A stretch of 64,000 nucleotides of DNA. Origin: Ancylobacter oerskovii (GTDB taxonomy: Bacteria > Pseudomonadota > Alphaproteobacteria > Rhizobiales > Xanthobacteraceae). Each line of letters starts with the position of its first letter. Position 1 is the stretch's first letter. Shown here piece by piece: positions 17,130 through 20,253 of the stretch. The notes beneath the pieces are model-generated. The model was not told the origin of the DNA. It did no database searches and worked only from the letters and a program-made list of their open reading frames with translations. The DNA is taken from assembly GCF_018390555.1 (NCBI RefSeq), contig NZ_JAHBGB010000023.1, positions 62,001 to 126,000 of the forward strand, written 5' to 3'. The translations under genes were made by a program, and so were the position numbers.

Positions 17130-17205
17130 GCCGCGGTAGCTCAGCTGGTAGAGCAACGCATTCGTAATGCGTGGGTCGGGGGTTCGAATCCCTTCCGCGG
17201 CACCA
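17130..17205 (+). tRNA. tRNA-Thr (anticodon CGU)
   Basis: A complete 76-base cloverleaf. The acceptor arms GCCGCGG and CCGCGGC pair, the anticodon stem ACGCA/TGCGT closes loop TTCGTAA, and the T-loop reads GGTTCGAATCC. The CCA end is encoded. The anticodon CGT at 17163-17165 reads ACG codons. Confidence 0.98.
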
Positions 17206-17402: not shown

Positions 17403-17741
17403 TCAGCGCCAGACATACCAGCAGTTGCGGAACGGCCGGCCCCAGCGGTCGCGGCGCCAGCCGCAGACCCGGCGGCGACGGCCGCGCCAGCGACGGCGGC
17501 GGCGCCAATAGCCCGGGGGCGGGCCGGGAGGCGGCCCCCAGCCGTGGCGGGGCGGACCCCAATATTGTGCGTCCTCGATGGCGGTGCCGTCCGGGGTGGC
17601 GGCAGCCGCGGGGTCGGGCGGGGCGAGGCCCTTCAGCTGATCGAGCGGCGTCGCCTCGGCCGGGGCGGCGAAGGCGAGGCCGGCCGTCGCCCCGGCGCCG
17701 ATGGCGCCGGCGAGGCCGAGAAGAAATCCACGTCTGTCCAC
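17403..17741 (-). CDS. Small exported Arg/Trp-rich protein
   Basis: A 112-residue protein I cannot assign to a function. It starts MDRRGFLLGLAGAIG, a Tat-like or Sec signal with Arg-Arg before the hydrophobic core and AFA-A cleavage near residue 25. The mature part is a Pro/Gly spacer, a run of about 12 Arg in 20 residues, and a C-terminus with two Cys (RRVCGWRR and RNCWYVW). Similar short proteins are common in Hyphomicrobiales. It is separate from its neighbours by about 200-300 bases. Confidence 0.65.
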   Translation of the reverse strand: MDRRGFLLGLAGAIGAGATAGLAFAAPAEATPLDQLKGLAPPDPAAAATPDGTAIEDAQYWGPPRHGWGPPPGPPPGYWRRRRRWRGRRRRVCGWRRDRWGRPFRNCWYVWR

Positions 17742-18039: not shown

Positions 18040-20253
18040 CTATAGCAGCTGGGCGACCTCGAAATGCATGCCGTCCGGCCGGGTGTTGAAGTGGCCGCCC
18101 CAATAGAAGCCGTGCCGGTTGGCGATCGGCACCAGCTCGCGCAGGCATCCCTTCTCGCCCATCGCCGCGGGCTCGACGCCGAGCGGATTCCAGGCGGCGT
18201 TGATGTCGAAGGCGGTGCCGAAGGCGTGGTTGGACAGCTTGGTGGTGCTCTTGCGCTGGAAGCGCGCCACGAAGGCGCCGTCATAGGTGAGGATGCGGTC
18301 GAGCAGCCCGGCCTTCTCCCATTCCAGCCACAGCGCCACCAGCTGGTCCTTCGCCTTGACGTGGAAGCGGATGGCGAGCGGTCCCGGCTTGCCGAGGAAG
18401 CTCTTGAGCGGGATCTCGACCTTGACGATGTTGCGCGTCTCCCAATCGCCGAGGATGCGGATGTTCTCGGGATTGCCGGCGACGGGGGCGTGCACGAACT
18501 GGAAGGCGCCGAACAGCTTCTGGCGGTCCTCCAGCGACAGCAGCGGGCGGAAGCCGGGGCGCGGGGGGAAGTCGGGCGAGGAGAGGTCCAGCGCCGCCGG
18601 CGGCGGGGCGATGCCGACCAGTTCCTGGGCGAAACTCGGGCACTCCCGCACCCGGCCCCAATCCTCGTCGTCGGACACCCGCATGGCGTCGTTGAACCAG
18701 GCGACGAACCGGTCGATGTGCTGGCCGGTGCCGCGCGGGAAGCAGTGCAGCTTCCAGCGATTGGCGCCCGCCTCGTCGCGCTTGAGCGAGCCGGCATTGT
18801 AGGCCGCGGCCACCCGCGGCGGGTCGAGCTGGGTGGAGCTGCGCTGCTTGGCGATGTAGGCGGTGCCGGCGTCGATCGAGGTGGCCGGATCGAGCAGGTC
18901 GTCGGCCTTCAGGCTCTCGCGCCCGGTGGCGAAGCGGGCGGTCTTCACCAGCGTCTGCATCAATCCGACGCTCTCGTCGCCGATCTGCGGCTCGGCACGG
19001 CGGGCACCGGGATTGCCGGAGCTCTCGGTGGCGATGGTGGCGACCACCAGCTCCACCGGCACGCCGTATTTCTTCGCCGAGGCGGCGCAGAGCGGGCCGA
19101 ACCGGTCCCAGATGCCGCTGACGGTCGTGGGCTCGCCCGGCGTGCCCTCGGCGCGGGCGCCGTCTATGGCGATGCCGGCCGGGGTCAGCGCCCAGCTCAC
19201 CCCGTCGGGAAAATGGCGGTGCGGGTGGGTGAGCTTCGGCATCAGCTCGGTGAGCACGCTGGGGCTCATCGGCTTGGCCGGCTCGGGCGCCGGTTCCTCG
19301 GCCGCCGGGGCGACGACGACGCCCGGGGACGGCGAGACGGTGGCGATCGACCCGTCCTCGGCGACGACGATGGTGCCCGCCGGCGGCGACTTGGCCTGCG
19401 ACACCGTCTTCGCCACTTCCTCGACGGTGCGCATGTTTTCCTTCGCCTGCCGCTCCTGGCTCTCGGCGGTGCGCTGCTGCAGGCCGGCGGCGAGCACGTC
19501 CTTGTTGCGCGAGCTCTGCGAGGAACCGAGCCAGAAGCTCATCACCGTGGCGAAGGCGGCGGCGAGGGCGCCGACGCAGATATTGATGATCTGGATGACG
19601 AAATCGGAGCGCGGCTGCACCAGAGCGGCGATCTGCGCGGGCTGCAGCGTGCCGATGATGTCGGCGAGCTCCTCGGGGAGCTCGGGCGGCTGCGGCACTT
19701 CCAGCCGGTTCTTCAGCAGGAGGAACATCGCCAGCACCAGGAAGAAGCCGATGGTGACGATGTAGGACAGCACCATCGGCGTGCGGGCGACGATGGTGTC
19801 CTTGTCGAGCAGCGTGCTCAGCAGCTGCCGGGCGCCGGTGGTGTCGGCAAGGTCCTGCTGGCGCTGCTCCAGCGCCGCCTTCTCGCCGGCGACGATCTCG
19901 TCGAGCCGGGCCTTGTGGGCGGCGAGGTCGCGGTCGAGCGCATCCTTGCGGACCTGCGCCTCCTGCGCGATCTCGTCACGCCGGCGCTGCGCCTCGGCCT
20001 CCAGCTCCAGCCGCTTCTCCTCGGCGACGATGCGGGCAAGGGACAGCCGCAGCTCGGCCGCGGCCGCCGGGTCCTGGTCGACCTTTTCCTGGGCGGTGGT
20101 GGCGTCGAGCGAGCCGGTGGTGCGGGCCACCGCCTCGACCACGGCGTCGGCGACCTTGTCGCCGCGCTTGCCGACAAGGAAGTCGAGCAGGCTGGGAAGA
20201 AGATTACCGGCAAGCAAAATCAGCGGATTCATGAGGCCCCCCAGCCTGTTCAT
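18040..20253 (-). CDS. Holin-like / lytic transglycosylase / M15 peptidase fusion protein
   Basis: A 737-residue multidomain murein hydrolase. Order: a hydrophobic N-terminal segment (8-28), a charged coiled-coil (about 55-135), two membrane helices (about 160-181 and 217-241) followed by FWLGSSQSSRNKD, resembling the 3TM holin of gene transfer agents. A Pro/Ala linker (290-375) leads to an SLT-type transglycosylase domain (about 380-525, catalytic Glu410 in ATESSGNP, then SVGLMQT and AAYNAGS). Last is an M15/VanY-like zinc peptidase (about 600-737, ligands His676, Asp683, His730 in SNHAFGTAFD and DGMHFE). Start is ATG 20253 or 20232; longer starts lie in the divergent promoter zone. No phage genes flank it. 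Function, presumably local cell-wall opening, is inference. Confidence 0.85.
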   Translation of the reverse strand: MNRLGGLMNPLILLAGNLLPSLLDFLVGKRGDKVADAVVEAVARTTGSLDATTAQEKVDQDPAAAAELRLSLARIVAEEKRLELEAEAQRRRDEIAQEAQVRKDALDRDLAAHKARLDEIVAGEKAALEQRQQDLADTTGARQLLSTLLDKDTIVARTPMVLSYIVTIGFFLVLAMFLLLKNRLEVPQPPELPEELADIIGTLQPAQIAALVQPRSDFVIQIINICVGALAAAFATVMSFWLGSSQSSRNKDVLAAGLQQRTAESQERQAKENMRTVEEVAKTVSQAKSPPAGTIVVAEDGSIATVSPSPGVVVAPAAEEPAPEPAKPMSPSVLTELMPKLTHPHRHFPDGVSWALTPAGIAIDGARAEGTPGEPTTVSGIWDRFGPLCAASAKKYGVPVELVVATIATESSGNPGARRAEPQIGDESVGLMQTLVKTARFATGRESLKADDLLDPATSIDAGTAYIAKQRSSTQLDPPRVAAAYNAGSLKRDEAGANRWKLHCFPRGTGQHIDRFVAWFNDAMRVSDDEDWGRVRECPSFAQELVGIAPPPAALDLSSPDFPPRPGFRPLLSLEDRQKLFGAFQFVHAPVAGNPENIRILGDWETRNIVKVEIPLKSFLGKPGPLAIRFHVKAKDQLVALWLEWEKAGLLDRILTYDGAFVARFQRKSTTKLSNHAFGTAFDINAAWNPLGVEPAAMGEKGCLRELVPIANRHGFYWGGHFNTRPDGMHFEVAQLL

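Follow-up and report, generated by a model that had tools for sequence, protein, structure and literature searches.

A candidate holin-endolysin fusion retained by Ancylobacter and other Alphaproteobacteria

The 64,000-nucleotide stretch of DNA analysed here (the window), from the soil bacterium Ancylobacter oerskovii, contains, on the minus strand at 18040–20253, a single uninterrupted open reading frame of 737 codons. As the preliminary description had proposed, its product combines a membrane part, a lytic transglycosylase and an M15 peptidase in one polypeptide. Two ATG codons are candidates for the start: 20253, the earlier choice, from which the 737 codons are counted, and 20232. The more likely start is ATG 20232, giving a protein of 730 amino acids, because a G-rich stretch lies immediately 5′ of it and because it matches the beginning of most aligned relatives (MNPLI and the like). 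Pfam placed an SLT domain at residues 390–498 (18760–19086, minus strand; E 8.3e-19; PF01464, 67.7 bits against a cut-off of 21.3) and a Peptidase_M15_4 domain at residues 669–733 (18055–18249, minus strand; E 1.5e-16; PF13539, 61.2 bits against a cut-off of 25), and gave no significant match N-terminal of SLT. A linker of about 70 residues separates the N-terminal module from the hydrolases. The closest sequence relative of the SLT domain is MltC, a membrane-bound lytic transglycosylase.

The residues singled out earlier, Glu410 of the SLT domain (19024–19026) and the M15 zinc site formed by His676, Asp683 and His730, are invariant in all nine aligned proteins, the window protein counted. Three intact full-length orthologues with 87–88% identity occur in Ancylobacter sp. 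Lp-2, A. sonchi and A. defluvii and rule out a frameshift joining two genes. A loss of catalytic residues was likewise not seen. Compared with these three, the window gene has a dN/dS of 0.22–0.24 over its whole length; by part, the ratio is 0.19–0.26 for the module, 0.26–0.41 for the linker, 0.17–0.25 for SLT and 0.18–0.19 for M15. Every part of the fusion gene is under purifying selection.

Hydropathy analysis of the module identified two strong membrane segments, at about residues 161–179 (19717–19773, minus strand) and 219–237 (19543–19599, minus strand), and a third, N-terminal segment at residues 10–28 that is only borderline. An AlphaFold2 model of residues 1–300 based on 34 sequences (mean pLDDT 81.5, pTM 0.44) comprises short helices flanking P20, a long, coiled-coil-like helix at residues 62–149 (19807–20070, minus strand), a helix at 154–184 containing the first span and another at 216–287 containing the second; the membrane part is less certain, with blocks of 55–85 pLDDT. 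The two membrane helices noted previously were recovered, and the coiled-coil as one long helix. A model of the full-length protein had a mean pLDDT of 47 and was set aside. In the module model, the N-terminal hydrophobic stretch (residues 10–26; 20176–20226, minus strand) is split at P20 into two short helices and is probably not a full membrane span. This point matters for topology, since a third span here would place the enzymes outside. Over 34 proteins, the net charge is −0.9 in the loop between the strong spans, compared with +0.12 before the spans and +0.65 after them, and the loop is poorer in Lys and Arg than the C-terminal flank in 29 of 34 proteins but poorer than the N-terminal flank in only 22. 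The positive-inside signal is thus weak, and the charge pattern modestly favours a cytoplasmic location for both protein ends.

Within the module, conservation is highest at the GSSQSSRNKD signature, residues 243–252 (19498–19527, minus strand). Around it, in the end FWLGSSQSSRNKD, L242, G243, S244, S245, S248, K251 and D252 are invariant across 34 aligned modules. A Foldseek search against viral models returned nothing at E 0.001 or better; neither the top match, VHML ORF20 (E 0.054, probability 1.00), nor the match at rank four, ‘Holin of 3TMs’ (E 1.4, probability 0.80), was taken as proof. The corresponding structure search against the PDB gave nothing useful, with no match at E 0.001 or better.

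A profile search with the whole protein matched residues 8–111 to PHROG 1544 (E 1.4e-8), a phage family listed as having unknown function, and all 34 fused modules match the same family. Relatives that stand alone were found by a class-wide profile search with the module, which gave matches in 33 of 385 genomes; since many of these covered the profile only partly and lay in open reading frames of about 180 amino acids, the 33 genomes are not to be read as 33 genomes with a fusion. Eleven of the class-wide loci were inspected, and nine provided the stand-alone alignment (A2), with L072 and L073 omitted. By eye, L072 is another GH108-like fusion. All nine stand-alone relatives match PHROG 1544, and their alignment matches that of the fused modules in a profile-profile comparison with 99.2% probability (E 9e-20).

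The preliminary description had instead called the end of the module GTA-holin-like and pointed to the holin family PF11351 (GTA_holin_3TM). The conserved end itself stands, as the 34 modules attest, whereas the tie to PF11351 does not. The fusion protein has no Pfam match to this family at E up to 1, a family search of the window genome did not match it, and the fused-module profile reached a probability of just 10% against four PF11351 members. We therefore reject a PF11351 origin for the fusion protein. The two share an arrangement, with an N-terminal hydrophobic part, a helical middle and two C-terminal spans, but differ in that the fusion protein lacks a Pfam match and its module profile lacks similarity. 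Stand-alone PHROG 1544 relatives do show remote similarity to PF11351 (94%, E 1e-7, nine against four sequences).

In phage lysis, holin and endolysin are normally encoded by separate genes. Searches with two queries found 63 and 137 phage records with stand-alone relatives, of which we inspected 15 phages, picked for variety, including two selected for the holin or amidase that their listing mentioned. In 12 of the 15 (10 of 13 without the two picked by name), the stand-alone gene has an annotated murein hydrolase no more than 3 kb away, directly adjacent in ten, one gene away in one and three genes away in one. The other three phages have no annotated murein hydrolase within 3 kb; for one of them, a Pfam analysis of the two flanking genes recognised no hydrolase. 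Six of the phage hydrolases were assigned by Pfam, two to M15_3, two to M15_4, one to Phage_lysozyme and one to Amidase_2. In addition, the gene beside the stand-alone gene of Rhodoferax phage P26218 is named as GH108 in the record note, and in Aeromonas phage KLEA5 a lytic transglycosylase, by record name, lies one gene away. The stand-alone gene is itself named a holin in just one of the 15 records. PHROG 1544 proteins such as those of Rhodoferax phage P26218, Vibrio phage 1.243.O and Synechococcus phage MinM1 are thus homologous to the module, and their genes adjoin GH108 or M15 hydrolase genes; they differ in being separate genes for proteins of about 160–200 amino acids, whereas the bacterial forms described here are fused and chromosomal. 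That phages place the stand-alone module beside the enzyme types fused to it in bacteria is the main argument from which we infer a holin-like function.

A module scan of species genomes found 35 chromosomal loci, nearly all titled Alphaproteobacteria, together with two Accumulibacter MAGs. A fused hydrolase is present at 34 of the 35 loci (26 GH108 and eight SLT plus M15_4, one of them broken), which indicates that the enzyme part is interchangeable. Counting the window, the 36 proteins comprise 26 with GH108 and nine with SLT plus M15_4 (among them the window protein and the broken L047), and PG_binding_1 occurs in six. At the remaining locus, L070 (Reyranella), the module is broken and, by subtraction, a hydrolase is absent. 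At L047 (Rhizobium ruizarguesonis, L047:5953-8186) the reading frame is broken within the module, reflecting a pseudogene or a sequencing error; its downstream piece alone entered sets A5 and A7, and both L047 and L070 were omitted from A6 and the module tree. One additional relative, in genome G057, has the module fused to M15_3.

Several members carry an extra part before the module, GH19-like in L060 (with a sub-threshold match in the truncated copy L011); in L056, L062 and L068 this part looks CHAP-like by eye. None of the members extended in this way has an obvious signal peptide by eye. L046, L054 and L060 are long members with both an extra N-terminal part and PG_binding_1, and two of them, L046 and L054, have a damaged GH108 active-site motif. 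In the alignment, 25 of 26 proteins have E at the position of the GH108 Glu, but that of L054 falls at the deleted motif, so the EG motif is present in 24 of 26. Genome G035 encodes a membrane-linked M15_4 protein without the module (L012:862-1998), which has PG_binding_1 and, by eye, a C-terminal hydrophobic segment.

Within the genus Ancylobacter, the SLT plus M15 fusion occurs in four of 30 genomes and a GH108 fusion in five others; no genome has both. In the module tree, a branch with support 79/87 (unstarred and not strong) has the SLT plus M15 modules on one side, and the modules of the GH108-type Ancylobacter proteins are placed elsewhere. These positions suggest that each form entered Ancylobacter by an acquisition of its own.

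Ten open reading frames near the fusion gene in the window were examined with Pfam. Eight match GGDEF, response regulator, cyclic-nucleotide-binding, RF-1, M48 peptidase, phosphoribosyltransferase, PfkB and MFS families and two have no match; the preliminary description had likewise seen no phage or gene transfer agent (GTA) structural genes flanking the fusion. None of the ten was recognised as a defence or toxin gene. A tRNA-Thr gene is located at 17130–17205, some 0.8 kb from where the fusion gene ends. Between them, 298 bases from the fusion gene, lies a minus-strand gene (17403–17741) for a 112-residue protein rich in Arg and Trp whose N-terminus is, by eye, of the twin-arginine type (DRRGFLLG). 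This Tat-type gene adjoins the fusion gene in the window, in Lp-2 and in A. sonchi. Positions 14–24 kb of the window have no DNA in common with the regions of Lp-2 and A. sonchi other than the fusion gene and the Tat-type gene; the pair is thus kept together while its surroundings vary, although Lp-2 and A. sonchi have one upstream gene in common with each other. In A. defluvii, what is shared with the window region is instead the fusion gene together with the phosphoribosyltransferase side upstream of it, and its fusion and Tat-type genes lie at the ends of different contigs. Homologues of the Tat-type gene are present in 27 of 30 genomes, including genomes without the SLT plus M15 fusion; the closest are those of the three other fusion genomes (82–84%, compared with at most 75% elsewhere). 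The 17403–17741 protein is a possible partner or cargo of the fusion protein.

Around the 35 loci, 128 of 135 neighbouring genes were scanned, the exceptions being one piece of the L047 target, two overlapping L056 calls and four L070 neighbours; the neighbours were called by a crude GC-based script and some are spurious. No phage structural family was found among the matches listed (25 of 143 families). A transposase-like open reading frame adjoins L057 by eye. Neither the neighbours called nor the same 25 listed families showed a cargo gene common to the 35 loci. A gene for a PF09994 (Tle1-like phospholipase) protein adjoins the fusion at two Mesorhizobium loci (L039:8191-9582, L040:8195-9586), and homologues lie within 3 kb of it in Bradyrhizobium lablabi and Tropicimonas (L045:9811-10887, L046:409-1701). 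Pfam assigned this family by name to the L039 protein only, and the profile that relates the four was built from these same four proteins and is not independent. In the class background, 13 such genes occur in 11 of 76 genomes, so that 0.026 loci would be expected in 421 kb compared with the three lineages seen; as the background consists mostly of smaller genomes and the neighbours were noticed after the fact, this enrichment is no more than a lead. An unannotated polytopic membrane protein of about 540 amino acids is also encoded upstream of the fusion at the two Mesorhizobium loci and in a Xanthobacteraceae MAG, whose fusion has another hydrolase type (L039:4288-5925, L040:4338-5930, L060:2569-4218). 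Two of these proteins were tested and have no Pfam match, and in a search of 61 relatives the protein was present in that same Xanthobacteraceae MAG only.

With moderate confidence, we propose that a phage holin-like protein and an endolysin have been fused into one polypeptide that the host has kept as a membrane-tethered means of opening its envelope. The view put forward in the preliminary description, of a double murein hydrolase that is tethered to the membrane, stems from phage lysis proteins and has been retained by the host, is well supported by the PHROG 1544 match, the neighbours in phages, the catalytic residues, selection and the host-type surroundings; its opening of the wall locally, like the topology, membrane opening, trigger and purpose, is what we infer from these data. 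In the proposed mechanism, the N-terminal half would act as a holin-like membrane protein of PHROG 1544, and in the C-terminal half the lytic transglycosylase would cut glycan strands and the M15 peptidase stem peptides. The two membrane helices would probably leave both ends in the cytoplasm and keep the hydrolases from the wall, so that these would be made inside and remain idle, as free endolysins are. Assembly of the holin-like part would then open the inner membrane, and the tethered hydrolases, on their linker of about 70 residues, could reach the wall and cut nearby. In this way the host would open its envelope locally and release protein, as Type 10 secretion does, or would lyse some cells in a programmed manner. 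The data do not tell secretion, lysis and plain remodelling apart.

A device for programmed lysis and not for secretion, which would kill a subpopulation or an infected cell and release its contents, is possible, though we would not expect it. Judged by its domains, the protein combines every component of a holin-endolysin pair and two distinct hydrolase activities, and its sporadic distribution would suit such a role; the Pfam survey of the ten window neighbours, in which neither defence nor toxin genes were recognised, argues against it.

We think it rather unlikely that the protein is a membrane-anchored wall-remodelling enzyme, in which the module would serve as an anchor or spacer with three spans, a C-terminus outside and no holin action, and the hydrolases would trim periplasmic murein continuously. 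The borderline third segment at residues 10–28 and the proximity of the SLT domain to membrane-bound MltC are consistent with this explanation. However, the module belongs to a phage family found beside endolysin genes, the charge pattern favours both ends inside, and in the model P20 interrupts the N-terminal helix; moreover, a presence in four of 30 genus genomes is sporadic and does not look like housekeeping.

TtsA belongs to GH108, and ChiX is an M15-type peptidase. Type 10 secretion is described as a minimal pair of a holin and a wall-degrading enzyme, with some systems lacking spanins (PMC13284979). By homology, the fusion contains such a pair of host-encoded holin and peptidoglycan hydrolase, in fused form. 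The Type 10 systems (Serratia ChiWXYZ, Salmonella ChiH/ChiP and TtsA) are similar in that a phage-derived holin and peptidoglycan hydrolase are used by the host and in that the hydrolase has no signal peptide (PMC9527704, PMC13284979). They differ in having separate genes and linked exported cargo, whereas here there is one gene, for which secretion would be a putative role. A more specific version of our proposal, which we regard as doubtful, is a single-gene Type 10-like secretion device, in which the holin-like module would take its own interchangeable hydrolase through the membrane and leave it tethered at the opening, with a linked Tat-type cargo. The tether would keep wall cutting local, so that the cell could survive; the 112-residue Tat-type protein would be the cargo in Ancylobacter, and the polytopic membrane protein and Tle1-like phospholipase of Mesorhizobium might be accessory parts.

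The preliminary description had also connected the protein with a GTA. In the window genome, the GTA marker PF13547 is on contig C12 and the fusion gene on C16, and a GH24 lysozyme gene (L136:13581-14306, also on C12) lies about 4 kb from the marker; by eye, the lysozyme has a C-terminal hydrophobic segment. The marker is present in 28 of 30 Ancylobacter genomes, compared with four of 30 for the SLT plus M15 fusion. In many other Ancylobacter a GH108 gene is located 4–6 kb from the marker instead, which suggests that enzymes are exchanged in the GTA lysis slot as well. GH108 is found in 21 of the 30 genomes and is absent from the four SLT plus M15 genomes and five others; a first impression that the fusion replaces GH108 was dropped once the GH24 gene had been found near the marker of the window genome. 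A GTA lysis role for the fusion gene was rejected on the basis of the separate contigs and the separate lysozyme, and the GTA part of the earlier domestication reading, which also lacks a PF11351 match, is not supported. Fused relatives were sought in mobile elements as well: of 154 matches to two peptide patterns in viral contigs none was confirmed as a fused relative, the window module matched nothing in phages (E up to 1) or in plasmids, and in a whole-protein search of phages the matches were confined to hydrolase regions, none covering 80%. Although the module comes from a phage family and the genome carries a GTA marker, a prophage remnant or the lysis gene of the host's GTA is disfavoured and appears very improbable, given the location and distribution of the marker, the neighbours that are host-type or without Pfam match, the searches of viral contigs, phages and plasmids, and the selection and intact catalytic residues that speak against decay.

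The closest precedent we found for the proposed holin-endolysin fusion is from Clostridium sporogenes, where WP_163247266.1 is a natural fusion present in six C. sporogenes genomes, with a TpeE-family holin that has one membrane helix and an amphipathic helix (PMC9527704). For that protein it was proposed that each holin carries one enzyme, perhaps anchored afterwards (PMC9527704). The order is alike, with the holin part first and the endolysin part second in one polypeptide (here by domain content). The clostridial holin differs, as described there, in being of the TpeE family with one helix, compared with a two-span PHROG 1544 module here; also unlike that case, the present family has other hydrolases, interchangeable enzymes and a distribution across many Alphaproteobacteria. 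In the open-licence literature searched we found no report of such fusions besides the C. sporogenes case, and the module-fusion family, the exchange of its enzymes and its occurrence across Alphaproteobacteria seem to be new.

The related one-piece versions with swapped enzymes in other bacteria suggest a borrowed envelope-opening tool. If our proposal is correct, a family of host genes has fused holin and endolysin, with both parts under selection and the enzyme swapped, which would mean that a tethered endolysin can be of use to a cell. This would bear on the question, raised by Type 10 secretion, of how a hydrolase that has no signal peptide gets across the membrane while the cell survives, and it would give PHROG 1544, an unnamed family present in many phages, a testable function.
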